This document shows positions 7,317 through 48,014 of a stretch of DNA of 64,000 nucleotides, one piece after another. The position numbers were made by a program, and so were the translations under genes. The notes under the pieces are model-generated. The model worked only from the letters and a program-made list of their open reading frames with translations, did not search any database and was not told where the DNA came from. Origin of the DNA: Polaromonas sp. JS666 (GTDB lineage Bacteria > Pseudomonadota > Gammaproteobacteria > Burkholderiales > Burkholderiaceae_C); NCBI RefSeq assembly GCF_000013865.1, contig NC_007948.1, positions 3,658,001-3,722,000 of the forward strand. The letters are read 5' to 3'. The number at the start of each line of letters is the position of its first letter. Positions within the stretch are counted from its first letter, which is position 1.

Positions 7317-7338
7317 AGTGTTGCTCTTTCCGGGTTAA

Positions 7339-26247: not shown

Positions 26248-26258
26248 CAGGAAACGCC

Positions 26259-27677
26259 ATGAAAACGATTTTTCGATTGAGCGCCCTGGCCACGGCAGGC
26301 CTTGTGCTGGCAGGCTGCGCATCGGTCAACGTTGACCAGGTCGTGCGTGACACCAATGACACAACCAACACCTTTACCCAAGGCAAGCTGGAGCTCAGCC
26401 GTACCGAGCAGCAGGGGCAAGCCAGAGCCAAGCTGAGCAGTGAACTGCTGGCCAAGCCTTTAACGATGGACGATGCCGTACAGCTGGCTTTGTCCAACAG
26501 CCCGGCCGTGCAGACCTTGTTGGCGCAAAGCTGGGCCGACATGGCCCAGGCCAACCAGGCGGGCCGGATTGCCAACCCGCTCTTCACGTTTGAACGGATG
26601 CGCTTTGGCGATGAGCTTGAGCTGGGTCGTCTGCTGTCATTTGGCCTGCTGGATATCCTGACGCTGCCGCGGCGGCAGGCCATTTCGCGCAGCCAGGGCA
26701 GGCAGGCCAAGGTGCAGCTCAGTGCCAATGTGGTCGAGCAGGTCACGCAGGTACGCCAGGCCTGGGTGCGAGCCGTGGCCGCGCAGCAGACGCTGCAATA
26801 CGCAGGCCAGGTCAACAGCACCGCGCAGGCGAGTGCAGAACTTGCCCGGCGCATGCAGCAGGTGGGCAACTTCACCAAGCTGCAGCGGGCGCGCCAGCAG
26901 GTGTTCTATGCGGACGCTACCGCACAGCTGGCGTCAAGCCAGCATGCGGCCACCGCCGCCCGCGAAGAGCTGACGCGCCAGCTGGGCCTGACCGACGCGC
27001 AAGCCGGGCAATTAAAGCTGCCTGAACGCCTTCCCGACCTGCCGAAAGAACCGCGCCAGGCAGCCGTGGTGAGCGCCAACGCCACGCAGCAGCGCCTGGA
27101 CGTGCAAATGGCACGTAACCAGCTCGACGTGGCGGGGCAATCCCAAGGCTTGAACTTGATCACCAGCCTTGTTGACGTGGAGCTGGGCATTCGCCGCGAC
27201 ACGGTGTTTGACAACGCGGCCGGCACGAGCACGCCACGCAGAGGTTACGAGCTGGGCATTCGCCTGCCAATCTTTGATTGGGGCTCCGCGCAGCGTGCCG
27301 CGATGAACGCGCAGTCGCTGGCCGCCGCCAACCGCTATGAAAGCACGGTGCGCAACGCCTCGTCACAGCTGCGGGAGAGTTATTCGGCTTACCGCACAGC
27401 CTATGACGTGGCCCGGCATTACCGCGACGAGATTGTGCCGCTGCGCAAGACCATGGCCGACGAAAACGTACTGCGCTACAACGGCATGCTGATAGGCGTG
27501 TTCGAGCTGCTGGCCGACAACCGCGAGCAGATCTCCAGCGTCATCGCCGCGATCAACGCCTATCAGCAGTTCTGGCTCGCCGATGCTGCGCTTGCCGCGT
27601 CCATGACCGGCAAGCCAACCGCCACGCTGATGGCAGCGCCCACGTCAGGTGGCGGCGGCGACGGGGCCGGTCACTGA
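26259..27677 (+). CDS. TolC-family outer-membrane lipoprotein
   Basis: The 472-residue outer-membrane efflux protein has a lipoprotein signal: LVLAGC with Cys at residue 19. The helical hairpin repeats typical of TolC/CusC follow. Two OEP domains are suggested by repeated long amphipathic helices. No inner-membrane pump is encoded next to it, so it may serve the CusBA encoded at 31.7-36.5 kb or another pump. It may also share a role with the multicopper oxidase encoded 34 bases downstream. Confidence 0.85.
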   Translation: MKTIFRLSALATAGLVLAGCASVNVDQVVRDTNDTTNTFTQGKLELSRTEQQGQARAKLSSELLAKPLTMDDAVQLALSNSPAVQTLLAQSWADMAQANQAGRIANPLFTFERMRFGDELELGRLLSFGLLDILTLPRRQAISRSQGRQAKVQLSANVVEQVTQVRQAWVRAVAAQQTLQYAGQVNSTAQASAELARRMQQVGNFTKLQRARQQVFYADATAQLASSQHAATAAREELTRQLGLTDAQAGQLKLPERLPDLPKEPRQAAVVSANATQQRLDVQMARNQLDVAGQSQGLNLITSLVDVELGIRRDTVFDNAAGTSTPRRGYELGIRLPIFDWGSAQRAAMNAQSLAAANRYESTVRNASSQLRESYSAYRTAYDVARHYRDEIVPLRKTMADENVLRYNGMLIGVFELLADNREQISSVIAAINAYQQFWLADAALAASMTGKPTATLMAAPTSGGGGDGAGH

Positions 27678-27711
27678 TGACCCGCCGCACAGACCAATCA
27701 ATGGAATCGAC

Positions 27712-29127
27712 ATGACAAACAGAAGAAATTTTTTGACCGGCGCGGGCGCACTGACCTCCGCCGTGGCCGCAGCAGCAGTCAGCCGGGTGGCGATGGCCGC
27801 CCTGCCGGAACCGGTCCTGCAGACAAAACCCGACACCATGCCGCCGCTCGTTCCCGCCACGGGCCGCCCCTACAACCCGGTGGTCACGCTCAATGGCTGG
27901 ACGCTGCCCTGGCGCATGAACAATGGCGTCAAGGAATTCCACCTGGTGGCCGAACCGGTGGTGCGCGAGATGTCACCCGGATTCAAGGCGCACCTCTGGG
28001 GCTACAACGGCCAGAGCCCCGGCCCGACCATTGAAGTGGTGGAAGGCGACCGGGTGCGCATTTTTGTTACCAACAAGCTGCCCGAGCACACCAGCATTCA
28101 CTGGCACGGCCAGCGCCTGCCCAACGGCATGGACGGCGTGGCGGGCCTGACCCAGCCCGCCATTCCGGTCGGCAAGACCTTTGTCTACGAATTCGTGGCC
28201 CGGCGCCCGGGCACCTTTATGTACCATCCGCATGCCGACGAGATGACGCAGATGGCCATGGGCATGATGGGCTTCTGGATCACCCACCCGAAAGCGAAGC
28301 ATCCGCTGATCGACGAGGTCAACCGTGACTTCGTGTTCCTGCTCAATGCCTATGACATAGACCCCGGCGCCTACACGCCCAAGATCATGACCATGCTCGA
28401 CTTCAACCTCTGGAGCTGGAACAGCCGGGTCTTTCCGGGCATTGACCCGCTGGTGGTGCGCAAGAACGACAAGGTGCGCATCCGCATCGGCAACCTGACC
28501 ATGACCAATCACCCGATGCACCTGCATGGGCATGAGTTTCTGGTGACCGGCACCGATGGCGGCCCCACCCCAAAATCAACCCGCTGGCCCGAGGTGACGA
28601 CCGATGTCGCTGTCGGCCAGATGCGGCAAATCGAGTTCCTGGCCGACGAAGAGGGCGACTGGGCTTTTCACTGCCACAAGAGCCACCACACCATGAACGC
28701 CATGGGCCATGACGTGCCGACCCTCATTGGCGTAGACCACCGCAAAGTGGTGAAGGACATCACCAACGTCATCCCCGACTACATGGTGATGGGCGAGCGC
28801 GGCATGGCCGACATGGCCGAGATGGAAATGCCTTTGCCGGACAACACCGAAAGGATGATGACCGGCGCAGGCCCCTTCGGCTCAGTCGAAATGGGCGGCA
28901 TGTTCAGCATGGTCAAGGTACGCAAAGACCAAAAACCCGGCGACTACAAAGACCCTGGCTGGTACAAGCACCCGGTGGGTGAAGTCGCCTATGAATGGAC
29001 AGGTTCGCTGCCCAATCCGGCACGCTTTGCAGCCGAGGGCGGCCAATCCATGAAAGCACAGAACATGCCCCTGAAAGAAGTCGAAGTTCAGGTCCGCAAG
29101 CCCTCCATGGGCAACATGAAGCATTGA
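27712..29127 (+). CDS. Multicopper oxidase, Tat-exported, two-domain spacing
   Basis: The 471-residue protein has a Tat-type signal (NRRNFLTG) and all four copper-ligand blocks: HWHG (His130, His132), HPH (His172, His174), NHPMHLHGH (His267-His272) and HCHKSHHTM (His320, Cys321, His322, with His326 and Met331). Only about 75 residues separate the first and second halves, so the core resembles two-domain oxidases rather than three-domain CopA/CueO. About 130 unassigned Met-rich residues follow the last ligand. Probable role: oxidation of periplasmic Cu(I) to Cu(II). Confidence 0.88.
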   Translation: MTNRRNFLTGAGALTSAVAAAAVSRVAMAALPEPVLQTKPDTMPPLVPATGRPYNPVVTLNGWTLPWRMNNGVKEFHLVAEPVVREMSPGFKAHLWGYNGQSPGPTIEVVEGDRVRIFVTNKLPEHTSIHWHGQRLPNGMDGVAGLTQPAIPVGKTFVYEFVARRPGTFMYHPHADEMTQMAMGMMGFWITHPKAKHPLIDEVNRDFVFLLNAYDIDPGAYTPKIMTMLDFNLWSWNSRVFPGIDPLVVRKNDKVRIRIGNLTMTNHPMHLHGHEFLVTGTDGGPTPKSTRWPEVTTDVAVGQMRQIEFLADEEGDWAFHCHKSHHTMNAMGHDVPTLIGVDHRKVVKDITNVIPDYMVMGERGMADMAEMEMPLPDNTERMMTGAGPFGSVEMGGMFSMVKVRKDQKPGDYKDPGWYKHPVGEVAYEWTGSLPNPARFAAEGGQSMKAQNMPLKEVEVQVRKPSMGNMKH

Positions 29128-29159
29128 CAGAGTTGAAGCAATATCCTGGAGGAAATGTC

Positions 29160-29792
29160 ATGAAAATTGTCATGAAAATCTCAAAAGCCACTCAAAAAGC
29201 CACTCAATTAGCAGCGGCGTGCACCCTGGCTGTCTGGACCAGCGCCTCTTTTGCGCAACACACCGGGCATGCGCACAGCAGCGCCGCCAAGGCAACCGCG
29301 CAAGCCGACACCCCGGCATCTCCGTACGCGGGAGAGCAGACCCGCGACATCAAGTCACTTTCTGCAAGTGATGTAACGAGCCTCCTGTCGGGTGCCGGCA
29401 TGGCCTATGCGAAAGCCGCCGAGCTTAACGGCTACCCGGGCCCTGCACATGTGCTGGAATTGTCGTCGCAGCTAAGGCTCAATGGCGATCAGCACAGCGC
29501 CACCAGAACGTTGATGGATCAGCACAAATCCAGGGCACGCACCCTGGGGGCTCAGCTGCTGGAGGCTGAGCGTTCGCTGGACGGGGCTTTTGCCTCACAA
29601 CAAATCGATGCTCAGCGCGTTGAAGACCTGACCCGCCAAATCGGCACGCTGCAAGCCCGGCTGCGCGCGGAACATTTACAGACCCACCTGGCGCAAACCG
29701 CGCTGCTCAGCCCACAGCAAATTGCCAGCTACCAGAGATTGCGGGGTTATGACCGGACGACGACAGGAAAGGAACCAAGCTCTCCTCAATAA
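29160..29792 (+). CDS. Spy/CpxP-like periplasmic protein
   Basis: The 210-residue product has a signal peptide (CTLAVWTSASFAQ) and a His-containing linker. A helical domain carries GPAHVLELSSQLRLNGDQ and TALLSPQQIASYQRLRGYD. The latter is the LTxxQ-like motif of Spy/CpxP/CnrX-type proteins, which bind metals or act as periplasmic chaperones. GGAGG lies upstream. It lies between the oxidase and cupredoxin genes, consistent with copper or unfolded-protein stress. Confidence 0.7.
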   Translation: MKIVMKISKATQKATQLAAACTLAVWTSASFAQHTGHAHSSAAKATAQADTPASPYAGEQTRDIKSLSASDVTSLLSGAGMAYAKAAELNGYPGPAHVLELSSQLRLNGDQHSATRTLMDQHKSRARTLGAQLLEAERSLDGAFASQQIDAQRVEDLTRQIGTLQARLRAEHLQTHLAQTALLSPQQIASYQRLRGYDRTTTGKEPSSPQ

Positions 29793-29898
29793 GGTCTCAT
29801 CCGGCTTCACGCAAGACCAAAACCCCATTCATTTCCCGAACCCGATGACTACCCTGGTCACCGTCTATTTTTCAATCACCCCGTTTAAAAGGTATTTC

Positions 29899-30411
29899 AT
29901 GAAATCACATAATGTCCTGCTCGCGCTCCCTTGCGTTCTGTTTTCCCTGTCCGCGCTGGCGGCTGGCAACCATACAGGTAGTCATGGAGACGACGCGATC
30001 GGCAAGCCCGGCATCGCATCCAGGGTGACACGCACGGTGGTCGTCGACATGACCGATGACATGCGCTTCCATACCTCAAAAGTTCCCGTCAAGCAGGGTG
30101 AGACTATCCGCTTCGTCGCCAGGAATCTTGGCCAGGTCAAGCACGAAATGGTGCTGGGCTCGGAAAAAGACCTGAAGGACCACTACGAAGTGATGAAGAA
30201 AAATCCGGAAATGGAGCATGAGGACGCCAACATGGTGACGGTCGCGCCGGGCAAAAGCGGCGAGATCATCTGGCAGTTCACCAGGGCAGGCAAGGTCGAC
30301 TTCGCCTGCCTGCAGCCCGGGCACTATGACGCCGGCATGAAGGGGCTGGTGAATGTGGCAAGCAGCAAGGTACTGATCAAAGGAGATGGCCATGCAGATC
30401 ACAAGCGTTGA
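29899..30411 (+). CDS. copI: CopI-like periplasmic cupredoxin
   Basis: The 170-residue protein has a signal peptide ending LSALAA and a single cupredoxin domain. Candidate type 1 copper ligands are His in QVKHEMVLG (near 93) and Cys, His and Met in FACLQPGHYDAGM (near 139-149). A Met/His-bearing insert (KKNPEMEHEDANM) adds possible Cu(I) sites. It resembles CopI of betaproteobacterial and gammaproteobacterial copper operons. It is encoded in the run between the Spy-like and DUF411 genes. Confidence 0.82.
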   Translation: MKSHNVLLALPCVLFSLSALAAGNHTGSHGDDAIGKPGIASRVTRTVVVDMTDDMRFHTSKVPVKQGETIRFVARNLGQVKHEMVLGSEKDLKDHYEVMKKNPEMEHEDANMVTVAPGKSGEIIWQFTRAGKVDFACLQPGHYDAGMKGLVNVASSKVLIKGDGHADHKR

Positions 30412-30910
30412 CATGGTTTCCCGTCGTATGGCGTTGCGGTTGCCGCTGGCGGCACTTGCGACGGCAGCGCTCCTCACTCAACCGCTGCGCGCGCTGGCTC
30501 GCAGCAGCCAGCCCCAGATCACGGTCTGGAAGGACCCGGACTGCGGCTGTTGCCAGGACTGGGTCAAACACCTGGAAGCCGGCGGCTTTCAGGTGAAGGT
30601 GAATAACGGCGGCAATACCGCGGCCAGGACCCGGCTCGGTGTGCCTGACAAGTTGGGCTCCAGCCACACAGCACTGGTGGGCGGCTATGCCATCGAGGGC
30701 CATGTACCCGCCCGGGAAATTCACCGTCTTTTAAAAGAACGCCCATCGGTCATCGGTCTGGCCGTGCCCGGCATGCCCGTCGGCTCACCGGGCATGGATG
30801 CGCCGGTGTATGGCGGGCGCAAGGACCCGTACGACGTGCTGCTCATCAACCGCGATGGCAGCAGCCGTGTTTATCAAGCTTATCCCTCCCAATCTCCCGC
30901 TAAATCCTGA
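30392..30910 (+). CDS. DUF411 metal-binding protein
   Basis: The 172-residue protein has an export signal with Arg-Arg (VSRRMALRLPLAALATAALL) and the DUF411 core: VWKDPDCGCCQDWVKHLE, LGSSHTALVGGYAIEGHVPA and GMPVGSPGMD. The CGCC motif is the probable metal or thiol site, as in CopG-like proteins of copper clusters. The preferred start is ATG 30392, 6 bases after AGGAG; an in-frame ATG at 30386 abuts that site. It overlaps copI by 20 bases. Confidence 0.85.
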   Translation: MQITSVDMVSRRMALRLPLAALATAALLTQPLRALARSSQPQITVWKDPDCGCCQDWVKHLEAGGFQVKVNNGGNTAARTRLGVPDKLGSSHTALVGGYAIEGHVPAREIHRLLKERPSVIGLAVPGMPVGSPGMDAPVYGGRKDPYDVLLINRDGSSRVYQAYPSQSPAKS

Positions 30911-30918
30911 AAGAAATC

Positions 30919-31275
30919 ATGATGAAAACCCTGAAAACCCTGTTGATCCTCACGGCCATGGCTGGCGCTGCGTCCGCTTACGCGGCATCGCATGCAGGCG
31001 CACCCATGGCGATGGGGGAAGCCAGCAAAGAAGCCGCCATGGCTGCCCCCACCGATATGGCCGACGGCGAAATTCGCAAAGTTGACATGGCCACCAAAAA
31101 GATCACCATCAAGCACGGCGAGATCAAAAACCTGGACATGCCTGGCATGACGATGGTGTTTCAGGTGAAGGACCCCGCCCTGCTGGACAAGGTCAAAACA
31201 GGTGACAAGATCCGCTTCAAGGCAGAGAAAGCCAGCGGCGCGATTGTGGTGACCGAAATTCAGCCGGCCAGGTAA
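30919..31275 (+). CDS. cusF: CusF-like periplasmic copper-binding protein
   Basis: The 118-residue exported protein has a signal peptide ending ASAYAA. Its CusF fold runs GEIRKVDMATKKITIKHGEI, then LDMPGMTMVFQV and GDKIRFKAE. The metal site is His in IKHGEI with the Met pair in PGMTM; the Trp of classical CusF is not in the same place. It is the last gene of copper block 1 and is followed by a terminator. It probably carries Cu(I)/Ag(I) to the Cus pump. Confidence 0.87.
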   Translation: MMKTLKTLLILTAMAGAASAYAASHAGAPMAMGEASKEAAMAAPTDMADGEIRKVDMATKKITIKHGEIKNLDMPGMTMVFQVKDPALLDKVKTGDKIRFKAEKASGAIVVTEIQPAR

Positions 31276-37904: not shown

Positions 37905-38303
37905 TCAAATGCGGAAGCAACAGTTCCGGATGGCCACAGGCGGAGCTGTGGTGCGCTTCAGGTCGGGCACCAGCAGCGGCGCACCTGAAAACACCGGGCC
38001 AATGGGTGGCGATGTGAAATCAGAAGGCAGAGCACTGATGGCTACCGGCGACGGGAATTCGTACTTGTCGGCGGTTTGCTGGCCAGTCTGGCAGTGCGCC
38101 TGGCACAGGTTGGGCTGCGTGTCGTCCATGTTCAGCGACATGGGTTCGGCGCAGGGCATACGGGCGTCGGCCATCGCGGCGACTTCCGCGACCGTTGACG
38201 CAGCACCTGGACAAGCATAGCTGGCCACCGCCAACTGCATGAACAGCAGGCTGACCAGTGCAAAAAGCACTGTGATCAGGCGGGTGCGGCGGTTCCAAAT
38301 CAT
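37905..38303 (-). CDS. Cys-containing exported protein at the head of the cus operon
   Basis: The 132-residue product has a signal peptide (ITVLFALVSLLFMQLAVASY) and several Cys (YACPGAA, ARMPCAEP, NLCQAHCQTG, IRNCCFRI) with interspersed Met. The spacing suits a secreted copper-binding peptide such as the CopL/DUF2946-like leader proteins of copper operons. It precedes cusC and is read with it. The function is inferred from context only. Confidence 0.65.
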   Translation of the reverse strand: MIWNRRTRLITVLFALVSLLFMQLAVASYACPGAASTVAEVAAMADARMPCAEPMSLNMDDTQPNLCQAHCQTGQQTADKYEFPSPVAISALPSDFTSPPIGPVFSGAPLLVPDLKRTTAPPVAIRNCCFRI

Positions 38304-38486: not shown

Positions 38487-38888
38487 TCACTCGGCGAGCT
38501 CATCGAGGATCGGACAGGCTGGCCGCTCGTCGCCATGACAGGACGCGGCCAAGACCTCGATCGTGTGCTTCATCGACACCATCTGGCTCACTCGGCGCTC
38601 CAGGTTGGCGATGTGGACCAGAGCGATGCGTCTGACATCGGCGCTCGCCCGGTGACGGTTCTGCCAGAGCTTGAGCAACTCGGCGATCTCGTCCATGCCA
38701 AAGCCGAGGTTCCGCGCGCGGCCAACGAAGCGCAGCGTGTGGACTTCGCTGTCCCCGTACTGCCGGTAGCCGGCCTCTGTGCGGGCCACGGGGGACAGCA
38801 AGCCCATGGATTCGTAGTAACGGATCATCTTGGCCGTCACGCCGGAGCGTGCGGCCGCCTGGCCTATGTTGAACCGCTGCGCGTTCAT
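38487..38888 (-). CDS. cueR: CueR-type copper-responsive MerR regulator
   Basis: The 133-residue protein has the winged helix FNIGQAAARSGVTAKMIRYY and a long dimer helix. The C-terminal loop is CHGDERPACPILDEL. The Cys-7x-Cys spacing followed by PI equals CueR Cys112/Cys120, the linear Cu(I)/Ag(I)/Au(I) site. The start is set at ATG 38888, where MerR alignment begins. It follows the deleted copA in one transcription unit. Two CueR-type promoters lie upstream at 39.3-39.4 kb. Confidence 0.93.
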   Translation of the reverse strand: MNAQRFNIGQAAARSGVTAKMIRYYESMGLLSPVARTEAGYRQYGDSEVHTLRFVGRARNLGFGMDEIAELLKLWQNRHRASADVRRIALVHIANLERRVSQMVSMKHTIEVLAASCHGDERPACPILDELAE

Positions 38889-38965
38889 CGGCGCCGGCGT
38901 TCGGTGACGACCGTATCCTGCCGGCTTGCTGGCGGCCCGTTCTTGCCGTGGTGCGGTGTTGTACA

Positions 38966-39241
38966 TCATGGTCGATCTCCTTTCCAGTGGCGCAGCGTCA
39001 AGGCATTGGCAACCACGCTGACGCTGCTGAACGCCATGGCCGCGCCGGCAACGACCGGGCTCAGCAGCCCCAGTGCCACCAAGGGAGTCGCCACCACGTT
39101 ATAGGAGAACGCCCAGAACAGATCGTTGAGCGCCCAGTGTTCGTTAAACACGCAAGATGCACAGGTCATGCCCTCGATCGGAAACGACCGGACCGCCAAG
39201 CCACCGATTGCGGTGGGCGCGAGGGTGGCGGTGCTGCTCAT
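38966..39241 (-). pseudogene. copA: copA remnant: N-terminal HMA motif fused in frame to the last membrane hairpin
   Basis: The 91-residue frame begins with the HMA metal site [13 protein letters not shown]. After about seven residues it continues with [20 protein letters not shown], then [20 protein letters not shown], which are the final TM pair and tail of copper P1B-ATPases. The usual 700-plus residues with CPC, DKTGT and the ATP-binding domains are absent. The deletion is in frame and the promoter is intact, so a short membrane peptide with one CxxC could still be made. Transport activity is impossible. Confidence 0.88.
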
Positions 39242-39285: not shown

Positions 39286-39316
39286 AGTCTCGACCTTGCC
39301 ACTGTTGGAAAGTCAA
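39286..39316 (-). promoter_or_regulatory. CueR-type promoter of the copA remnant
   Basis: On the reverse strand, TTGACT (39316-39311) and GAGACT (39291-39286) are separated by 19 bases. The spacer contains CTTTCCAACAGTGGCAAGG, close to the CueR dyad CCTTCC-N6-GGAAGG. It points toward the copA remnant and cueR. Confidence 0.68.
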
Positions 39317-39366: not shown

Positions 39367-39397
39367 TTGACCTTCCCACAGTCGGAAGCATCACAGT
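39367..39397 (+). promoter_or_regulatory. CueR-type promoter of copZ
   Basis: TTGACC (39367-39372) and a weak -10 CACAGT (39392-39397) are 19 bases apart. The spacer holds the perfect dyad CTTCC-CACAGTC-GGAAG (39372-39388). It lies 35 bases before the copZ start and faces away from the copA remnant, so the two promoters are divergent and share CueR. Confidence 0.68.
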
Positions 39398-39431: not shown

Positions 39432-39623
39432 ATGATGGAATTCGACCTCCAGTCCATGACCTGCAGCCACTGCGTCAACGCGGCAGCCAAGGCCGTCAAG
39501 TCGGCCGCTCCCGACGCCAAGGTCGAGGTGGATCTGCCCAATCACAAGGTTTCGGTGGAGACCCAGGTGGATCGTGAGACGGTCGTTGCCGCGCTAAGCG
39601 AGGCAGGTTACCGTCCTGACTGA
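39432..39623 (+). CDS. copZ: CopZ-like copper chaperone
   Basis: The 63-residue HMA-domain protein begins MMEFDLQSMTCSHCVNAAAK. Cys11 and Cys14 form the CxxC copper site, and it ends VVAALSEAGYRPD. AAGGAG lies 7 bases before ATG 39432. It carries cytoplasmic Cu(I), normally to CopA, which is deleted next door. It may now mainly buffer copper or pass it to CueR. Confidence 0.92.
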   Translation: MMEFDLQSMTCSHCVNAAAKAVKSAAPDAKVEVDLPNHKVSVETQVDRETVVAALSEAGYRPD

Positions 39624-39843: not shown

Positions 39844-40173
39844 ATGAACTTCAAGTATGTTGTCGCAATTGTCCCGCCTGATGCCGTGAAGTCGCTGGAA
39901 GCGAGACTCATACGCATGGGCGTCGGAGGGATCACACTGACGAAAGTCAAGGGCTTCGGCGAGTACAAGAACTTTTTTACCAGGGACTTGCTCAGTGAAC
40001 ACACCAAAATCGAGATCTTCACGGAGGCATCGAAATTGGAGCCACTGCTCGACGCCTTGCTGGAAGTCGGGGATGCCGACATCCCCGGCTCAGGAATCGT
40101 GGCTGTGATCCCCGTCGACAGGTTCCTCCATCTTCGTACCGGGACCGATGACTTGCCTGCATCGTCAATTTAA
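39844..40173 (+). CDS. PII-like protein linked to metal efflux
   Basis: The 109-residue protein has the PII ferredoxin-like fold: MNFKYVVAIVPPDAVKSLEA, GVGGITLTKVKGFGEY, and GDADIPGSGIVAVIPVDRFL. The T-loop is atypical, lacking the Tyr uridylylation segment of GlnB/GlnK. It fits the PII-NG group, which is known to be encoded near CusA-type efflux systems. It may sense a nucleotide or metal and regulate a membrane partner. It is the first gene after copZ, with a 220-base gap in which no convincing gene was found. Confidence 0.82.
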   Translation: MNFKYVVAIVPPDAVKSLEARLIRMGVGGITLTKVKGFGEYKNFFTRDLLSEHTKIEIFTEASKLEPLLDALLEVGDADIPGSGIVAVIPVDRFLHLRTGTDDLPASSI

Positions 40174-40236: not shown

Positions 40237-40491
40237 ATGAAATGCGATTCGAAAATGATGGTGAAGATGGCTCTCGGGCTGGGCGTTGGCCTCGCGGTCG
40301 CGTACTTCGCGCTGCCCGCGGCCCAAGTGCTCATTCTGGCCAGCGCACCCTTCTTGGCGGCACTCATCTGCCCCGTGGCGATGTTCTTCATGATGAAGGG
40401 CATGAATGGCGACAAGAAGGATGAGAGCAGAACGCCAGACCAAAGCAAGGTGAAGTCCGAGACCCGCCATGCCGATCCAGGCAAAGCTTAG
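40237..40491 (+). CDS. DUF2933 membrane protein
   Basis: The 84-residue protein has one or two membrane segments (MALGLGVGLAVAYFALPAAQ, then APFLAALICPVAMFFMMKGM) with a Cys and a Met cluster, and a charged tail. DUF2933 proteins recur in metal resistance islands; their function is unknown. AAAGGAG lies before ATG 40237. It opens the redox run that continues to dsbD. Confidence 0.8.
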   Translation: MKCDSKMMVKMALGLGVGLAVAYFALPAAQVLILASAPFLAALICPVAMFFMMKGMNGDKKDESRTPDQSKVKSETRHADPGKA

Positions 40492-40569
40492 CGAGCAACG
40501 CCCGAATTCCGCATTCACAGGCGGCTGGCCACACATTCCACTCACCCAGGATCCAGGCGAGGCCTTCAA

Positions 40570-41166
40570 GTGTCACACACGGCAACCCCTCCAGACCCTG
40601 CACGTCGCGTGTGGCTCACGGCAGCTTCTGTGGCTGGCGGCGCGGGTATCGTCGCAACGAGCGTACCCTTCGTGGTTTCCATGGCCCCCAGCGAGCGAGC
40701 ACGCGCGCTCGGCGCGCCCGTAGAGATCGACGTTGGGCCCATCAAGCCAGGCGAGCTACAGACCGTGGAGTGGCGCGGCAAACCGGTGTGGGTGCTGCGC
40801 CGCACTACCGACATGCTCGCAACCTTGCGCAGCCATGACGATTTGCTCAGCGACCCGCATTCGAGCCGTCGGGGGCAGCAGCCCGATTACGCCCGCAACG
40901 ACCTTCGCTCGGTCAAGCCGGACATCGCCGTACTGGTGGCGATCTGCACCCACCTGGGTTGCGTCCCGTCCTTCAGGCCAGTGCCGGGTACTGCCGACAT
41001 CGGCGCGTCATGGCCGGGCGGGTTTTATTGCCCGTGCCATGGCTCGAAGTTCGATCTCGCCGGCCGGGTTTTCAAGAACGTGCCCGCTCCCAGCAACCTC
41101 GAGGTGCCGCCGCACCACTACACCGGCGAGTCGAAACTACTCATCGGCGAGGGGCCGCGGGCCTGA
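40570..41166 (+). CDS. Lone Rieske [2Fe-2S] protein of the bc1 type
   Basis: The 198-residue protein has an N-terminal membrane anchor (WLTAASVAGGAGIVATSVPF). Both cluster-binding boxes are present: CTHLGC (Cys126, His128, Cys131) and CPCHGSKF (Cys154, Cys156, His157). It resembles the Rieske subunit of ubiquinol-cytochrome c reductase, but no cytochrome b or c1 genes are adjacent. The start codon is GTG. It is encoded directly before a cytochrome c, suggesting a small dedicated electron path. Confidence 0.87.
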   Translation: MSHTATPPDPARRVWLTAASVAGGAGIVATSVPFVVSMAPSERARALGAPVEIDVGPIKPGELQTVEWRGKPVWVLRRTTDMLATLRSHDDLLSDPHSSRRGQQPDYARNDLRSVKPDIAVLVAICTHLGCVPSFRPVPGTADIGASWPGGFYCPCHGSKFDLAGRVFKNVPAPSNLEVPPHHYTGESKLLIGEGPRA

Positions 41167-41181
41167 TCGACGAGGCTCCAG

Positions 41182-41859
41182 ATGGCTCTTGTAAGCTTCG
41201 TCCGCATCGCCCTCCTGGGGATCGCCGGGGGGGTCTCGTTCGTTGCCCCGTCTTATGGTGCAGAAGACGTCGAGCGCGGCGCACAGGTGTCGCGTTCCTG
41301 CATGGCCTGTCATTCGTTCTCGCCCGGGCGCCACATGACCGGCCCGAGCCTCGCAGGGGTGTGGGGCCGCCGGGCGGGCACCGCCGCCGGGTTCAGCCGC
41401 TATTCGGATGCGCTGAAGCGCTCGGAAATCGTCTGGACCGAGAAGTCCCTGGATGCATGGCTCCGAAAGCCGGCGGCGTTGATTCCGGGCAACACCATGC
41501 TCTTCGATGGCATACCGGACCCGGGTACGCGCGCCGATCTGCTGGCATATCTCCAGGCCGTGTCCGAAGGTCGCGCTTCGGCACCGGAGCGCGGGCTGCC
41601 GAACCTCAAGCGCGTCGACGCGTCCAGCCAGGTGACCGCGATCCGCTATTGCGGCGATGCCTACCGCGTCCTCACCGGCGACGGCAAGAGCCGCACCTGG
41701 TGGGAATTCAACCTGCGGTTCAAGACCGACGGCAGCCCCGACGGGCCGTCGACCGGCAAGCCGGTCATCGTCGGCAGCGGCATGCAGGGGGACCGGGCCG
41801 CGGTCGTCTTCTCGCGCCCCGAGGAGATATCGATGTTCATTCGAAGGGAGTGCCCGTGA
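41182..41859 (+). CDS. Exported class I cytochrome c with C-terminal extension
   Basis: The 225-residue protein has a signal peptide (LLGIAGGVSFVAPSYGA) and one heme site, CMACH (Cys40, Cys43, His44). The candidate distal Met lies in IPGNTMLFDGIPDPG. After about residue 125 there is an extension of about 100 residues with two further Cys and a beta-rich look. The gene follows the Rieske gene by 15 bases and overlaps tlpA by 4. It probably exchanges electrons with the Rieske protein or the oxidase of the same run. Confidence 0.86.
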   Translation: MALVSFVRIALLGIAGGVSFVAPSYGAEDVERGAQVSRSCMACHSFSPGRHMTGPSLAGVWGRRAGTAAGFSRYSDALKRSEIVWTEKSLDAWLRKPAALIPGNTMLFDGIPDPGTRADLLAYLQAVSEGRASAPERGLPNLKRVDASSQVTAIRYCGDAYRVLTGDGKSRTWWEFNLRFKTDGSPDGPSTGKPVIVGSGMQGDRAAVVFSRPEEISMFIRRECP

Positions 41860-42527
41860 AGGACAGAACAACGGGCCGCCCGGAGGTCGCCGCTATTGAC
41901 CCCGCCCACGCCGTGCAGGCGAAGACGGCGCGGCCGCGCGCCGCGGCAGGAAGAAGGGCCTTGCTCGTGCTGCCCATCGTGGCAGGACTGTTTGCCGTTG
42001 TGCCGCTGCTTGATCGAATGCGTAGTCCGCAATCCGCCGGCCTCGACCTCGTCCTTCATGCGCGCCCGAAGGAATTGCCGAATCTGCGGTTCTCCGATGG
42101 GGGAACGCAGACGAGCCTGGCCACCTTCCGAGGCAAGGTCGTGCTGCTCAACGTGTGGGCCACATGGTGCCCGCCGTGCCTCGAAGAAATGCCGGCCCTG
42201 GATCGTTTGCAGGCCGCGCTGGGTGGGCCGCACTTCGAAGTCGTCGCACTCTCAATCGATCACGGTGGCCTGCCGGTCGTGCAGGCATTCTTCGATCGCA
42301 CAAGCATCAAGCACCTGCAGTCATACATGGACACGTTCGGCGACGCATCTTCGAATCTCGGTGTGGCCGGTGTTCCGCTGACGCTGCTCATCGACCGGGA
42401 GGGCCGCGAGATCGGCCGCAAACTCGGTCCGGCGGCGTGGGACGACCCGCGGATGGTCCAACTGATACACAGCCACATGGCGCCTGGTGCGGCGCCATCG
42501 CAACCCGAAGGTAGACCATGGCCCTGA
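41856..42527 (+). CDS. TlpA/ResA-like membrane-anchored thioredoxin
   Basis: The 223-residue protein starts with GTG and has one membrane anchor (LLVLPIVAGLFAVVPLL). The thioredoxin domain has WATWCPPCLEEMP with Cys105 and Cys108. GVAGVPLTLLIDREG carries the cis-Pro. TlpA/ResA proteins reduce disulfides of apocytochromes and copper proteins in the periplasm. It is encoded immediately after a cytochrome c gene, which suits a role in its maturation. Confidence 0.88.
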   Translation: MKDRTTGRPEVAAIDPAHAVQAKTARPRAAAGRRALLVLPIVAGLFAVVPLLDRMRSPQSAGLDLVLHARPKELPNLRFSDGGTQTSLATFRGKVVLLNVWATWCPPCLEEMPALDRLQAALGGPHFEVVALSIDHGGLPVVQAFFDRTSIKHLQSYMDTFGDASSNLGVAGVPLTLLIDREGREIGRKLGPAAWDDPRMVQLIHSHMAPGAAPSQPEGRPWP

Positions 42528-42622
42528 GAGCATTTCCTGTCGTCGCGCTCGTGCTACTCGTGGTCGCCTGCGGCGAGCGCACGGGCGGTTCAACGTCGCC
42601 GGTCAAGTCAGCCGACATATAA
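42518..42622 (+). CDS. Mini-lipoprotein, 34 residues
   Basis: A 34-codon gene overlaps the tlpA end by 10 bases. The peptide is a lipoprotein signal with lipobox LVVAC (Cys18) followed by only 16 residues (GERTGGSTSPVKSADI). A mature lipopeptide of 17 residues is predicted. Small lipoproteins of this form occur in oxidase and denitrification operons, but none of known function was recognised. Its tight fit between tlpA and the next gene supports it as real. Confidence 0.6.
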   Translation: MALRAFPVVALVLLVVACGERTGGSTSPVKSADI

Positions 42623-42633
42623 CAAGGATCAAT

Positions 42634-43545
42634 ATGCGATTCAACAAGCCCACCCTCCACGCCGCCCTGCTCGCGCTGGTGCTCGGCGTCTGCACGACCA
42701 CCCAGGCTCGCGCCGGCGAACCTGTCACATTGATGCACGTCCACGGGCTGTCCTACAGCGCTGACGGCAAACAGCTCCTGATCCCCAGCCACCATGGCCT
42801 GGCCGTGTACGCGGACGGGCGCTGGTCCAAGGCCGCAGGGCCGGCGCACGACTACATGGGCTACTCCGCCACGCGCGACGCGTTGTACAGCAGCGGGCAC
42901 CCGGCACCGGGTTCCGGACTGACCAACCCTTTCGGCCTGATCAAGAGCCGCGACGGCGGCAAGAACTGGCAGCAGTTGGGGCTCACAGGCGAGTCGGACT
43001 TCCATATGCTGGCGACCAGCTACGCGACCAACGCGGTGTACGTGCTCAATCACCAGCCGAACTCCCGCATGAGCCAGGCCGGCATCTACTACACACTAAA
43101 CGATGGCCTGAAGTGGACGCGCGCCGCCGCCAAGGGGCTGGGTCCCAAGCTCAACAGCCTGGTCGTGCACCCCACGGACGCCAAAGTCGTCGCTGCCGGC
43201 ATGGACGACGGGCTGTATCTGTCCCGGGATTCGGCCGAGAGCTTCGAGCGGCTGGCGGGTGGCCAGCGCGTACTCGCCCAAAGCTTCGACCTGGACGGGC
43301 AGCATCTGTGGTTCAGCACCCATGCAGGCAAGGCGGCGCTGGCGAGGATCGCATTGAAGGGTGGGGGCAAGGCCGAAGAGGTTCCGACCCCGGCACTGAC
43401 GGAGGATGCCGTGGCGTACATCGCGCAGAACCCCGTCCGGCGATCCGAGATCGCCATCGCGACCTTCAAACGAAGCGTGTTTCTCAGCAAGGACCAGGGG
43501 CGGACCTGGACGCTGATCGCGAAGGAGGGATCGACCCATGAGTGA
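42634..43545 (+). CDS. F510_1955-type exported beta-propeller protein
   Basis: The 303-residue exported protein has a signal peptide ending TQARA. Repeated BNR/Asp-box motifs follow: SRDGGKNWQQLG, TLNDGLKWTRAAA, SRDSAESFERLA and SKDQGRTWTLIA. The family is named F510_1955 glycosylhydrolase by similarity, but catalytic activity is unproven. Several His and Met sites near the N-terminus (LMHVHGLSYS) may bind metal. It is found in copper and silver clusters. It overlaps the next small gene by 8 bases. Confidence 0.8.
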   Translation: MRFNKPTLHAALLALVLGVCTTTQARAGEPVTLMHVHGLSYSADGKQLLIPSHHGLAVYADGRWSKAAGPAHDYMGYSATRDALYSSGHPAPGSGLTNPFGLIKSRDGGKNWQQLGLTGESDFHMLATSYATNAVYVLNHQPNSRMSQAGIYYTLNDGLKWTRAAAKGLGPKLNSLVVHPTDAKVVAAGMDDGLYLSRDSAESFERLAGGQRVLAQSFDLDGQHLWFSTHAGKAALARIALKGGGKAEEVPTPALTEDAVAYIAQNPVRRSEIAIATFKRSVFLSKDQGRTWTLIAKEGSTHE

Positions 43546-43672
43546 CGTACAGAATAGCAGCGCACCCAAGATCGTTGTGGGCGTACTCGCGGTCACTGGT
43601 GGCTTTGCAATCCTGGGCGCCATCGGCATGGCGGCGATGCATTTCGGAATGATGGGTCGCTGGAGCTGCTGA
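43538..43672 (+). CDS. Single-span membrane peptide, 44 residues
   Basis: The 44-residue peptide overlaps the end of the upstream gene. One membrane segment (VVGVLAVTGGFAILGAIGMA) is followed by MHFGMMGRWSC, rich in Met with His and Cys at the presumed membrane face. The position between the propeller gene and the oxidase gene suggests a copper-binding or complex-stabilising subunit. No family was recognised. Confidence 0.6.
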   Translation: MSDVQNSSAPKIVVGVLAVTGGFAILGAIGMAAMHFGMMGRWSC

Positions 43673-43716
43673 CAGGTCCCGTTCCCCGCACCAAAACCAG
43701 ATCGGAGGCGTCCCAC

Positions 43717-45372
43717 ATGAACAATCAAAGGCGCCGCATCCTGATCCGTTCAGCCGCCACTGCGGCGGTCGCTTCGCTCGGCCTGCGGGCGTTAAGCACA
43801 AGGGCCGGCAACGAAGAGCACACCGCCGCCGGCATCGATGTGCACATCGAACTGCATGCGGTTCAAGATAAGGTTGCCATCCGCCCGGGTGAGCAGACCC
43901 AGGTGTGGCGCTACCGGGGCAGGCTGCTGCACGGCGACGCGAGCGCGCTCAATACGTGGGCCAGCAACTACCTGGGGCCCATCATCCGAGTGCGCCGGGG
44001 TCAGCGGGTGCGCATCGACCTGATCAACGCGCTGCCTGAGTCGACCATCACTCATTGGCACGGACTGCACGTGCCGGAGGCGATGGATGGCCATCCGCGC
44101 TACGCGATTGCGCCGGGCGAGCGCTACGTCTACGAGTTCACGGTCGTGGATCGGGCCGGCAGCTACTGGTTCCACCCGCACCCCCATGGCCGGACGGGCA
44201 AGCAGATCTACTTCGGCCTGGCGGGCCTGTTCCTGGTAAGCGACGACGAGGAGGCTGCCCTTGATCTGCCCACCGGCCCGCACGACCTTCCGCTGGTGAT
44301 CCAGGACCGCACGTTCGACGACGACAACCAGCTCGTCTACCTGTCGGAGAGCGCGGCCGGTGCTGTATCGCAGGGCACTGGCCAACACGGGATGATGGGC
44401 GGCGGCATGATGGGTGGAGACGGCCGCAGCGGTGCCATGGGTGCCATGGATGCCATGGGCGGCATGGGCCAGATGATGGCCCGCATGATGGGCGTGCTCG
44501 GGGACAATATCCTCGTTAACGGCAGACCCGGCGCGAACCTGGAGGTCGAGCGCCGCCCCCATCGCCTGCGCTTGCTCAATGCCTCGAACACTCGCATGTA
44601 CAAGCTGGCGTGGCATGACCAGTCGCCGCTGACGGTGATCGCGACCGACGGCGGCTTGCTGGCGGCGCCGCTGCAACGCGACTACGTCATGCTCTCGCCG
44701 GCCGAGCGCGTCGACTTGTGGGTGGACTTCGGCCGCTGGACCGCGGGCACAGAACTGACGCTGCAAAGCCTCGCCTTCGCGGGCGGCATGGCCATGGGCG
44801 GAATGATGGATGGAACGGCGCTGCCCGATGGCGCGCCGTTCCCAGTGCTCAAGCTGCGGGTCGAGGGTGGCACGAGAGGCCGCGCCGCGCTGCCACAACG
44901 CCTGTCCCAGTTGCGGCGCCCGCAACCGCGCGCTGCCGTCAACTTCAACCACCCCAAGGTGTTCAATCTCACCATGGGCATGATGGTCTGGGGCATCAAC
45001 GGCCAAAGCTTCGACATGCTCGGTGCGAGCCCGCTTGAAACCGTCAAGCTGGGCACCCACGAGGTCTGGGAGTTTCGCAACGATGCCGCGAGCGGGATGA
45101 TGGATATGACGATGCCCCACTCGATGCACGTGCACGGGTTGCAGTTCCGGGTCATCGGGCGCTCCGTTGCCGGCAAGTTCTCGCGGCAACACGGCACGGT
45201 GAAGGCCGGCTTCGTCGACGAAGGGTGGAAGGATACGGTGCTGGTGATGCCGGGCGAGCGCGTGCGCCTCCTGCTGGGCTTCACCGACTACCCGGGGCTG
45301 TTTCCCTACCACTGCCACATGCTGGAGCACGAGGACTCCGGCTTGATGCGCAACTACCTCGTCAAGGAGTAG
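43717..45372 (+). CDS. CueO-like multicopper oxidase, Met-rich
   Basis: The 551-residue protein has a Tat signal (QRRRILIRSAATA). Copper-ligand blocks are HWHG (His113, His115), HPHPHG (His163, His165), HSMHVHG and YHCHMLEHEDSGLM. The full three-domain layout is like CueO/SufI. A Met/Gly-rich insert at about 226-268 (GMMGGGMMGG and similar) resembles the Cu(I)-handling Met loop of CueO. It probably oxidises Cu(I) in the periplasm. It lies 3 bases before dsbC. Confidence 0.92.
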   Translation: MNNQRRRILIRSAATAAVASLGLRALSTRAGNEEHTAAGIDVHIELHAVQDKVAIRPGEQTQVWRYRGRLLHGDASALNTWASNYLGPIIRVRRGQRVRIDLINALPESTITHWHGLHVPEAMDGHPRYAIAPGERYVYEFTVVDRAGSYWFHPHPHGRTGKQIYFGLAGLFLVSDDEEAALDLPTGPHDLPLVIQDRTFDDDNQLVYLSESAAGAVSQGTGQHGMMGGGMMGGDGRSGAMGAMDAMGGMGQMMARMMGVLGDNILVNGRPGANLEVERRPHRLRLLNASNTRMYKLAWHDQSPLTVIATDGGLLAAPLQRDYVMLSPAERVDLWVDFGRWTAGTELTLQSLAFAGGMAMGGMMDGTALPDGAPFPVLKLRVEGGTRGRAALPQRLSQLRRPQPRAAVNFNHPKVFNLTMGMMVWGINGQSFDMLGASPLETVKLGTHEVWEFRNDAASGMMDMTMPHSMHVHGLQFRVIGRSVAGKFSRQHGTVKAGFVDEGWKDTVLVMPGERVRLLLGFTDYPGLFPYHCHMLEHEDSGLMRNYLVKE

Positions 45373-45375
45373 ACG

Positions 45376-46089
45376 ATGATGGAGCGTCTGCTGATGGTCA
45401 TCGCGGCGGCGACCGTGGCAACGGTTGCCCGCAGCGACGACGCCGCGGTGCGCGCCACGTTGCAGCGCACCTTCCCGCAAAGCCCGATCCAGAGCCCTTC
45501 GAAGACCCCGGTTCCGGGCGTTCTCGAAGCGGCGATCGAAGGCCAGATCATCTACATCACGGAGGACGGCCAATACGTTCTTGGCGGTCCGCTACTCGAC
45601 GTCAAAGCGAGCCGCAACCTCACCGAAGTCCGGCTCGAACAGATCAATGCGATTCCCTTCGACAGCCTTCCCCTCGATTGGGCCTTCAAGCGGGTCAAGG
45701 GCACCGGTGCGCGCAGGATCGCGATCTTCGAGGATCCCGACTGTCCGTACTGCAAGATGCTGGAGCAGACGCTTGAGGGCATGGACAACTTGACGGTGTA
45801 TGTCTTTCTGTATCCCATCGACCAGATCCACCCCGACGCTGTGGCCAAGTCCAAGGCGGTCTGGTGCGCGAAAGACCGGGTCAAGGCGTGGGACGATGCC
45901 ATGCGTCCCGGCACCGTGCCCACTGGCGCGGCGAACTGCGACAACCCGATTGCGAAAATCATCGACTTCGCGAAGCGGCACCGTATCACCGGCACCCCGA
46001 CGACAATACTCGCGGATGGGCGCCGATTGGTCGGCGCCGTCCCTCGCGCCGAGCTGGAAGCGCAGCTGCAGAAAGCGGCAAAACGATGA
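45376..46089 (+). CDS. dsbC: DsbC-like disulfide isomerase
   Basis: The 237-residue protein has a dimerisation domain (VPGVLEAAIEGQIIYITEDG) and a thioredoxin fold with CPYC (Cys123, Cys126) after FEDPD. A second Cys pair (Cys165, Cys184) lies in AVWCAKDR and GAANCDN. TGTPTTILADG carries the cis-Pro. It corrects wrong disulfides, a damage type copper causes in the periplasm. Its stop overlaps the dsbD start, so DsbD is its likely reductant source. Confidence 0.9.
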   Translation: MMERLLMVIAAATVATVARSDDAAVRATLQRTFPQSPIQSPSKTPVPGVLEAAIEGQIIYITEDGQYVLGGPLLDVKASRNLTEVRLEQINAIPFDSLPLDWAFKRVKGTGARRIAIFEDPDCPYCKMLEQTLEGMDNLTVYVFLYPIDQIHPDAVAKSKAVWCAKDRVKAWDDAMRPGTVPTGAANCDNPIAKIIDFAKRHRITGTPTTILADGRRLVGAVPRAELEAQLQKAAKR

Positions 46090-48014
46090 CCTCACGATCA
46101 TTGCGCTGCACCTCGGCTCGCGTCGCACGCTGCCTTCCTGGACTGCTGCTTGCCGCGTCTGCTGCGGCCTATGCCCAATCCGATGCATCCGCGCCCCCTG
46201 TGTCGCCGCCGCCCGGATTCTCGGCCGCAGCGTCGGGGCCGATTGACTCGATCCGGAAGTGGTTGAATGTTCCCAGCTCGGAGCCCGAGTTGCTGCCACC
46301 GGAACAGGCGTTCCAGATTGCGGTGCGGGCGAGCGATGCGAACAGGCTGGTCGCCGAATTGACGCCGGCGCCGAACTACTACCTCTACCGCGACCGTATC
46401 AGCTTCAGCGTTGTCCAACCACCGACGGTCGCCATCGCCAAGGTGACGCTGCCCAAGGGGGAGCCCAAGACCGATCCCACGTTCGGGACGGTGGAAGTGT
46501 TCCGCCGCCCGGTCGAGGCAATCATTGACTTGAAGCGGCCGGATGGGCAAGAGAGCCCGATCCAGCTGCGCACCACGTACCAGGGCTGCAATGAACCGCT
46601 GGGCGTTTGCTACCCGCCGATCGAGAAAACGTTCACCGTAGCGCTACTTGGCATCGCCTCGCCCGCTGAACCTTCGCCGGTGCCTGTGGCCGATGCATCG
46701 GGCTTGCCGACCGGCGGTCCGTCGGACGACGGGCATATTCGCCAGCTGTTCATGCGCGGCAGTGTCTGGGCGCTGGTCGCAGCCTTCTTCGGCTTCGGTC
46801 TGTTGCTGGCGTTCACGCCCTGCATGCTGCCGATGATCCCCATCCTGTCCGGCATCATCGCCGGACAGGAACCGCACATGACGCGGCGCCACGCCCTCGG
46901 CCTGTCGTTGGTTTACGTTCTGGGGATGGCGATCACCTACGCGCTGGCCGGCGTGGCGGCGGGGCTCGCGGGCACGCTGCTGTCCGCGTACCTGCAAAAC
47001 CCCTGGGTGCTGGGCGGCTTCGCCGCGATCTTCGTGCTGCTGGCGCTGTCGATGTTCGGCCTGTTCGAACTGCAGTTGCCCGCATCCCTGCAAAGTCGGC
47101 TGGCCCGTGCGGGCAGCCGGCTCAAGGGAGGCAGGGTGGCCGGCGTGTTTCTGATGGGGGTACTGTCGGCGGTGATCGTCGGGCCCTGCGTCGCCGCCCC
47201 GCTAGCGGGCGCGTTGCTGTACATCGGTCAGACGCGCGACATCGCCCTGGGCGGCGTGGCTTTGTTCTCGCTGGCCATCGGCATGGGTGCTCCGCTGCTC
47301 GTGGTCGGCGCCACGGCCGGCACTTTGCTGCTGAAGGCCGGCGCCTGGATGGAGTCGGTCAAGCGGCTCTTCGGCGTGGTGATGCTGGCGGTGGCGATTT
47401 ATCTCGTCTCACCAGTGATTCCGGTCGTCGTGCAGCAACTGCTGTGGGCGGCTCTGCTGGTGGTGTCGGCCATCTACTTGCACGCCCTCGACCCGTTGCC
47501 GACCGACGCGCCGGGCTATAGGCGCCTTTTCAAGGGTGTGGGCGTGCTGGCGCTGCTGACGGGTGCGGCCCTGATGGTAGGCGTGCTTTCGGGCCATCGC
47601 GAGATCCTGCGGCCGCTGGCTGGCATCCGTGGCACCGCCAACATCGAGCGACGGGAACTCACTTTCCAGCCCGTGAACAGCGTGTCCGAACTGGAGAGCC
47701 GGCTGGGGGCGGCCCGGGGCCAGGTCGTGATGCTGGATTTCTGGGCCGAGTGGTGCGTGTCGTGCAAGGAAATGGACCGCTTTACCTTCAGCGATCCGCG
47801 GGTTCAGACCCGCTTGAAGGATGCGGTACTGCTGCGTGCCGACGTCACCGCCAACACCCCGGATCACCACGCGCTGCTGCAGCGGTTCTCGTTGTTCGGA
47901 CCACCGGGCATCGTGTTCTTCGACAAGCAGGGCCGGGAGGTGGCCTTCCGCGTGATCGGGTACCAGGCTCCGGAGCAGTTCATGGCATCGCTGGACCGGG
48001 CGCTGGCGCCGTGA
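46086..48014 (+). CDS. dsbD: DsbD thiol:disulfide interchange protein
   Basis: The 642-residue protein has a signal peptide and an N-terminal alpha domain with its Cys pair in YQGCNEPLGVCYPP. The eight-span membrane domain has Cys in FTPCMLPMIPI and VGPCVAAPLAG. A C-terminal thioredoxin domain has WAEWCVSCKEMD. It carries electrons from cytoplasmic thioredoxin to DsbC and TlpA-like proteins. The start at ATG 46086 overlaps the dsbC stop by 4 bases. It is the last intact gene of the redox run. Confidence 0.94.
   Translation: MTSRSLRCTSARVARCLPGLLLAASAAAYAQSDASAPPVSPPPGFSAAASGPIDSIRKWLNVPSSEPELLPPEQAFQIAVRASDANRLVAELTPAPNYYLYRDRISFSVVQPPTVAIAKVTLPKGEPKTDPTFGTVEVFRRPVEAIIDLKRPDGQESPIQLRTTYQGCNEPLGVCYPPIEKTFTVALLGIASPAEPSPVPVADASGLPTGGPSDDGHIRQLFMRGSVWALVAAFFGFGLLLAFTPCMLPMIPILSGIIAGQEPHMTRRHALGLSLVYVLGMAITYALAGVAAGLAGTLLSAYLQNPWVLGGFAAIFVLLALSMFGLFELQLPASLQSRLARAGSRLKGGRVAGVFLMGVLSAVIVGPCVAAPLAGALLYIGQTRDIALGGVALFSLAIGMGAPLLVVGATAGTLLLKAGAWMESVKRLFGVVMLAVAIYLVSPVIPVVVQQLLWAALLVVSAIYLHALDPLPTDAPGYRRLFKGVGVLALLTGAALMVGVLSGHREILRPLAGIRGTANIERRELTFQPVNSVSELESRLGAARGQVVMLDFWAEWCVSCKEMDRFTFSDPRVQTRLKDAVLLRADVTANTPDHHALLQRFSLFGPPGIVFFDKQGREVAFRVIGYQAPEQFMASLDRALAP

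Follow-up and report, generated by a model that had tools for sequence, protein, structure and literature searches.

A copper-resistance operon of Polaromonas sp. JS666 encodes a second Rieske iron–sulfur protein, of the type found in the cytochrome bc1 complex, together with a c-type cytochrome that carries an undescribed domain. The operon lies in a 64,000-nucleotide stretch of DNA (the window; NCBI RefSeq assembly GCF_000013865.1, contig NC_007948.1, positions 3,658,001 to 3,722,000) from a 5.9 Mb genome in three contigs, and the coordinates below are those of the window. As a first-pass annotation made from the letters alone had described, ten plus-strand open reading frames run head to tail from 40237 to 48014. 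They overlap (cytochrome/TlpA by 10 bp, TlpA/SCO1 stub by 10 bp, propeller/peptide by 8 bp and DsbC/DsbD by 4 bp) or are separated by gaps of 3 to 78 bp. The gene content, its recurrence in relatives with a largely kept order, the paralogy of the Rieske and the apparent repeated recruitment of bc1-type Rieskes into copper islands were all observed. We rate the repeated Rieske capture and the extra domain of the cytochrome as the unusual parts of this operon. Tentatively, and at somewhat short of even likelihood, we read it as a CueR-controlled copper (silver) island operon. Its products would form a kit, induced by copper, that replaces and re-metallates parts of the periplasm-exposed, copper-fragile bc1–cytochrome c–oxidase segment of the respiratory chain, beside Cu(I) oxidation.

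The Rieske gene (40570–41166, plus strand) encodes a protein that scores 207.6 bits against TIGR01416 (cutoff 97.4) and has as its best PDB match 8smr, a bc1 iron–sulfur subunit. It resembles that subunit in its membrane anchor, its bc1-length hinge (spacing 40) and its 2Fe–2S ligand motifs (CTHLGC and CPCHGS), and it carries an RR twin-arginine (Tat) motif; it differs in being encoded without cytochrome b or c1, within a copper operon. No cytochrome b match was found in the locus, which rules out a local bc1 complex. The other Rieske gene of the genome, petA (C1:843469 onwards), encodes a 57% identical protein and is followed by the only cytochrome b gene (C1:844236 onwards), so that the 'lone Rieske' of the first-pass annotation holds for the locus and fails for the genome. 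Cytochrome b was present in all 14 genomes checked that hold a copper-island Rieske, this one included; among the 13 others, 12 have one cytochrome b gene and one has two. In G789, which lies outside that count, the bc1 Rieske (L079) adjoins cytochrome b. All Rieske copies compared keep both cluster motifs, and, where both patterns were recognized, copper copies have a Tat–hinge distance of 40, as against 40 or 41 for bc1 copies, the pattern having failed on C. oxalaticus, Halomonas, the G387 island copy and G528. Compared with housekeeping bc1 Rieskes, among which G528 was counted here, the copper copies differ most in loop 135–147.

Rieske proteins were then ranked across 399 genomes of the family, 377 of which have a match at E ≤ 1e-40. 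The window's copy and eight others score at least 290 bits, and all eight of these closest relatives (L116–L122 and L082) lie near metal-resistance genes; the metal is unsure in L118–L121 because the supporting matches there are weak (P-type ATPase 40–41%, MerR 32–33% and oxidase 27–32% identity). For the next 18 Rieskes by rank, 13 loci were fetched; none of the 13 has an MCO (multicopper oxidase), CopA or CueR match, nor a cytochrome b match, and they show a distant resistance–nodulation–division (RND) pump only in two cases and a TlpA-like match in five. Four of the five unfetched Rieskes adjoin cytochrome b, and the fifth (L106) has none within 3.6 kb. These 13 belong to a different kind of orphan Rieske. 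Inspection of neighbours by eye placed orphan Burkholderiales bc1-type Rieskes beside cytochrome bd oxidase (cydAB) genes in L123, L124 and L130, and another beside a CcoG-like gene in L129, all without copper genes. On plasmids, 30 records contain a Rieske relative. Nine plasmid loci were read (eight of the 30, plus C. oxalaticus): five hold a lone Rieske in a copper island (C. gilardii, C. oxalaticus, B. contaminans, P. fungorum and Halomonas), two a lone Rieske with no clear copper context (Methylocystis and B. cenocepacia) and two are ordinary bc1 loci (Legionella and Alteromonas).

In a tree of 49 Rieske sequences the copper-island copies are not monophyletic, which suggests about four separate recruitments of bc1-type Rieskes into copper islands. 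The tree is unrooted, and its labels were taken from gene context and set with earlier trees already known. Methylocystis, G789c, Halomonas and B. cenocepacia were left out for long branches or unclear context, so the copper-island Halomonas is not among the recruitments. The copper label requires five changes on the tree, all forced by starred branches; one of them is the Rubrivivax row inside the main clade, whose context is unknown because it sits at a contig end, which leaves four. The corresponding groups are a Comamonadaceae-type clade containing the window's copy, a Cupriavidus pair, a Burkholderia/Paraburkholderia pair and G387. Forcing all copper rows and the Rubrivivax row into one clade cost 100.8 log-likelihood units (p-AU 2e-45, approximately unbiased test). 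As the tree is unrooted, the changes are not proven gains; we infer that bc1 copies are less likely to derive from island copies than the reverse. In G387, the Rieske gene directly follows propeller, peptide and MCO genes, and its product is sister to a Ramlibacter bc1 Rieske that is itself encoded beside cytochrome b (L076). The G528 Rieske, on a 4.5 kb contig, has no cytochrome b beside it and just Dsb-like matches, and was not labelled bc1 in the final tree.

The second unusual component is the cytochrome (41182–41859, plus strand), identified by profile and fold as a class I cytochrome c with a CxxCH haem site. A haem domain of the mitochondrial/c2 type (residues about 28–130) is followed by a confidently predicted beta domain (residues about 137–225). 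No Pfam model matched the cytochrome, and the one NCBIfam model, for cytochrome c-550, scored below its cutoff; the extra domain gave no Pfam, NCBIfam or PDB match, and no listed fold match was convincing. Three residues in the extra domain are invariant—Cys157, Cys224 and Met201—and a search for it as a stand-alone protein returned mostly proteins from short contigs. Every family in the operon is known except this domain. The cytochrome is rare in the genomes sampled: 6 of the 399 family genomes match at E ≤ 1e-30 (this genome included; one match, in G275, is partial), as do 6 in a sample of 399 from the order at E ≤ 1e-50 (again including this one). Of the 25 loci examined, 23 lie among metal-resistance genes. 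The uncharacterized domain is joined to a mitochondrial-type cytochrome c in alpha- and betaproteobacterial metal islands. On contig 8 of G528, two copies (L056 and L057) lie about 16 kb apart, each with its own metal-resistance genes. On alphaproteobacterial plasmids, Met-rich membrane peptides of 44–45 residues are encoded between CusA and the cytochrome (L040 6625–6762, L041 11798–11935 and L044 11855–11989); by eye, they are unlike the window's peptide in sequence.

To follow the operon across relatives, the cytochrome was used as the query against one genome per species, which gave eight loci. In six of these (L007–L012) the cytochrome is full-length (64–86% identity) and the gene set is present; L013 and L014 have partial cytochrome matches and lack it. 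The order of genes is kept in five of the six related Burkholderiales loci (L007, L008, L010, L011 and L012), among which L007 has an extra propeller after the Rieske, L008 (Variovorax) lacks the MCO and has a cut DsbC, and L012 (Polaromonas) contains frameshifts. L009 is rearranged, with the propeller and peptide before DUF2933, and SCO1, TlpA and the Rieske after DsbD. Counted over seven loci including the window, DUF2933, the cytochrome, TlpA, the propeller and DsbD occur in 7/7; the MCO (absent in L008), the peptide (not found in L010), DsbC and the PII protein (neither in L011) each occur in 6/7; SCO1 is whole in 6/7 and a stub in the window. The Rieske occurs in 5/7; it is not in the fetched stretches of L010 and L011, whose genomes hold a copper-type Rieske elsewhere. 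Between DsbC and DsbD, some relatives have an additional TlpA-like or PCYCGC gene. Ratios of nonsynonymous to synonymous substitution (dN/dS) against L007, L012 and L008 were 0.14–0.41 for every gene, with three exceptions. DUF2933 reached 0.54 against L008, whose MCO match, which is not orthologous, gave 0.52; the 44-residue peptide (1.37, 1.46 and 0.40) has too few codons to be tested in this way. Against L007 and L012, constraint is strongest on the Rieske. The copper link proposed in the first-pass annotation and the conserved co-occurrence that it asked to have checked were both supported, and its proposal withstood its own condition for refutation, that gene order be conserved in no relative or that the Rieske and cytochrome genes lie beside oxidase genes only by chance insertion. 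A recent shared plasmid acquisition of the whole unit was rejected, as no near match to 40237–48014 was found in the plasmid collection.

One of the ten frames proved to be a gene remnant. What had been described as a mini-lipoprotein (42518–42622, plus strand) is a stub: just the 5′ part of a SCO1/SenC lipoprotein gene remains. The same start leads into a 197-residue SCO1/SenC frame with a CPDVC motif in L007, L010 and L012, and at this place L008 and L011 encode longer SCO1/SenC-type frames; the L007 frame matches Pfam SCO1-SenC at 2.1e-48. The window matches L007 up to 42618 and again from 42621, and the intervening 527 bp of L007 are missing, which identifies the frame of 34 codons as the product of a deletion. 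The stub ends before the thioredoxin-like CxxxC domain that the L007 copy retains, and a role as a complex subunit, which the first-pass annotation had proposed, is ruled out. Two other SCO genes (46% and 38% identity) lie elsewhere in the genome.

The remaining families were those first named, as supported by Pfam and NCBIfam matches. Ahead of the Rieske lies a DUF2933 small membrane protein (40237–40491; PF11666, 3.9e-16), and after the cytochrome a TlpA-like membrane-anchored thioredoxin of uncertain start codon (41850–42527; NF047696 at 4.6e-41, below its cutoff, and Pfam Redoxin). The secreted BNR/sortilin-like propeller (42634–43545) belongs to the F510_1955 family (NF045728, 267.9 bits against a cutoff of 175), 'glycosylhydrolase' being merely the name of that family; against the PDB, sequence searches gave just weak Ycf48/HCF136 matches (E 0.012 and worse). 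A second copy, 92% identical, lies in the same genome (G000:C1:1663305-1664253; L004, and L036 8297–9208), and next after it comes a CopA-type ATPase gene reduced to a C-terminal fragment (L036 9271–9648). F510_1955 propellers occur in nine P. aeruginosa plasmid records; in the one read (L053), the gene (6953–7858) directly follows an RND efflux operon and a copper-binding protein. The 44-residue single-helix membrane peptide with a Met/His/Cys tail (43538–43672) is, to judge from its relatives in eight other loci, a conserved gene. It is followed by the MCO (43717–45372), a CueO/CutO-like protein with Pfam Cu-oxidase_3 and Cu-oxidase_2 domains, PDB matches and a Met-rich insert. Its translation contains the copper-ligand motifs HWHG, HPHPHG, HSMHVHG and HCHMLEHEDSGLM; its 277 bits against the NCBIfam CueO equivalog fall below the cutoff of 525, which makes it CueO-like and not CueO itself. 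Another oxidase, 30% identical, lies just upstream of the PII gene in L008. The operon closes with a DsbC-like disulfide isomerase (45376–46089; DsbC_N and Thioredoxin_2) and a DsbD thiol:disulfide transmembrane reductase (46086–48014; NF001419, 568.7 bits), all on the plus strand.

The operon probably starts further left, as a unit of 12 genes, because a CueR-type operator and genes for a CopZ-like HMA copper chaperone (39432–39623; Pfam HMA, 3.9e-11) and a PII-family protein (39844–40173; Pfam P-II, 3e-11; its PII-NG-like label comes from the metal context) stand directly upstream on the same strand. The likely order is then CopZ–PII–DUF2933–Rieske–CytC–TlpA–(SCO1 stub)–propeller–peptide–MCO–DsbC–DsbD, beside CueR, a CopA remnant and CusCBA. 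PII adjoins DUF2933 in L007, L008, L010 and L012 and is two genes away in L009. Two putative CueR-type operators lie back to back, one per direction: 39367–39388 (plus strand, facing the operon) matches the pattern exactly and 39295–39316 (minus strand, divergent) has one mismatch. The scan used the CueR consensus, allowed at most one mismatch and gave no site in shuffled sequence (0.00 expected). Regulation by CueR is thus predicted. Both operators are conserved in Polaromonas L012, where a similar pattern recovered them; the strict pattern was not found in L007–L011, of which the L007 contig begins inside PII. Scans gave 0 sigma-70 promoter sites against 1.5 expected, and 6 terminator-like sites against 6.2 expected. 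On the minus strand lie a MerR-family, CueR-like regulator (38487–38969; Pfam MerR_1/MerR-DNA-bind, 54% to an annotated CueR) and the remnant of a CopA-type P-type ATPase (38966–39241; 48% over 54 residues to CopA, no Pfam match), in which the start of the HMA domain is fused to the C-terminal end and the middle is gone; L012 also has a short remnant. A 132-residue protein (37905–38303, minus strand), directly preceding TolC–CusBA, has a CxxxC motif (CQAHC) and a PP motif near its C terminus, which the available text of PMC8456105 gives as marks of CutF-like proteins; it has no Pfam match. The window also holds a second copper cluster (26244–31275, plus strand) with TolC, another MCO, cupredoxin, DUF411 and CusF-like genes.

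We favour the replacement kit because the recurring parts that are not devoted to Cu(I) oxidation belong to a single stretch of the respiratory chain, with the cytochrome c or a high-potential iron–sulfur protein (HiPIP) as its carrier; in two islands the HiPIP lies beside an MCO. The CueO/CutO-like oxidase would convert Cu(I) to Cu(II) next to the CusCBA pump as detoxification, the second Rieske would swap into the single bc1 complex and the second mitochondrial-type cytochrome c would act as a replacement carrier; copper induction, the Rieske exchange and the direction of electron flow are what we infer. SCO1 and TlpA would serve the Cu-A site of the oxidase, and DsbC and DsbD would reduce copper-oxidized thiols of apocytochromes and chaperones. 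Thiol reduction by DsbC and DsbD is used for both cytochrome c and Sco. In Bradyrhizobium, TlpA reduces Sco and COX II, according to the available text of PMC6696091. Support for the repair role for copper damage raised in the first-pass annotation is indirect. We regard as possible, if doubtful, a more specific version, in which copper or silver stress brings the second Rieske into the one bc1 complex. A cytochrome c of its own would accompany it, the new domain handling copper or docking to bc1, and islands would thereby spread 'respiration insurance' among bacteria; the repeated and independent captures of bc1-type Rieskes would be the evolutionary trace of this.

Several observations weigh against the replacement kit. 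The Rieske is present in just 5/7 operon loci and 6/25 cytochrome loci, and in L009 it stands at the far end of the rearranged set. Orphan Rieskes are not specific to copper, because 13/13 control loci lack copper genes, and an unrooted tree alone cannot separate gains from losses. The loss of the window's SCO1 indicates that this gene is dispensable in this genome, and the extra domain suggests a role for the cytochrome beyond that of a plain spare carrier. Moreover, in the available text of PMC6247083, copper damage is reported for cbb3 oxidase and succinate dehydrogenase, not for bc1 or the Rieske protein.

Three other explanations were considered. In the first, which we consider unlikely, the operon is a folding and maturation unit for copper proteins: TlpA, SCO1, DsbC and DsbD, with the peptide and propeller, would mature the MCO and guard thiols, and the Rieske and cytochrome would be passengers that have uses of their own. 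The thiol set is indeed the largest block, enlarged in some relatives by the further TlpA-like and PCYCGC genes, and Rhodobacter CutO needs its small neighbour protein CutF (available text of PMC8456105); such a unit leaves unexplained both the roughly four recruitments of bc1-type Rieskes and the strong constraint on the Rieske against L007 and L012. An improbable second explanation is a dedicated electron path from quinol or Cu(I) through the Rieske and the two-domain cytochrome c to the MCO or a terminal oxidase, oxidizing Cu(I). All of the carriers are high-potential types, the extra domain has its invariant Cys and Met residues, and the cytochrome gene follows CusA and a small peptide gene on Nitrobacter, Rhodopseudomonas and Bradyrhizobium plasmids and directly follows an MCO gene in Roseibium. 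However, the Rieske, cytochrome and oxidase genes occur without each other, which weakens a Rieske-to-oxidase wire and the fixed path to this oxidase that the first-pass annotation had suggested: Variovorax L008 has the Rieske and cytochrome without the operon's oxidase, L010 and L011 have the oxidase and cytochrome with no Rieske in the fetched stretch, and L116 and L117 (a 6.2 kb contig) have a Rieske beside a P-type ATPase with no oxidase recognized. In addition, Rieskes of the bc1 type are known to function as subunits, in partnership with cytochrome b. Last, the idea that metal islands collect any periplasmic redox genes and that the Rieske and cytochrome were inserted by chance fits the mobility and varying content of islands and the rearranged L009, yet is very improbable, being disfavoured already by the order shared among five of six loci with cytochromes 64–86% identical, by purifying selection, by several independent recruitments and by the metal-resistance neighbours of 8/8 closest Rieskes, against 0/13 more distant ones with MCO, CopA or CueR matches.

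If the replacement kit is correct, resistance to copper and silver would comprise the swapping of damaged respiratory subunits in addition to efflux and oxidation, and the exposed Rieske cluster and cytochrome c would become named targets of both metals. In agreement with the first-pass annotation, which knew of no described system with this exact set, our searches of an open-access library turned up no paper recognizable as describing this gene combination or copper-island Rieskes. The closest systems share parts of it. The CopA–cupredoxin–DUF2933–ICMT cluster of Alteromonas and relatives (PMC8478169) likewise places DUF2933 in a MerR-associated copper cluster, whereas 'Rieske', 'cytochrome c' and 'DsbD' are absent from the available main text of that report. 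The cutFOG operon of Rhodobacter capsulatus (PMC8456105, available text) also encodes a CueO-like oxidase of the periplasm, in which a Met-rich stretch separates domains 1 and 2, and also has a small-protein gene just upstream of the oxidase. By contrast, it comprises three genes, without Rieske, cytochrome, SCO1, DsbC or DsbD, and the window's 44-residue peptide lacks the CXXXC motif of CutF. The cup/cop/cus/gig genes of Cupriavidus metallidurans (PMC10304878) form a different set, with 'Rieske' and 'DsbD' absent from the available main text, but they too combine CusCBA with a periplasmic Cu(I) oxidase, and the authors of that study raise the possibility of electron transfer by Gig from Cu(I) to the quinol pool.

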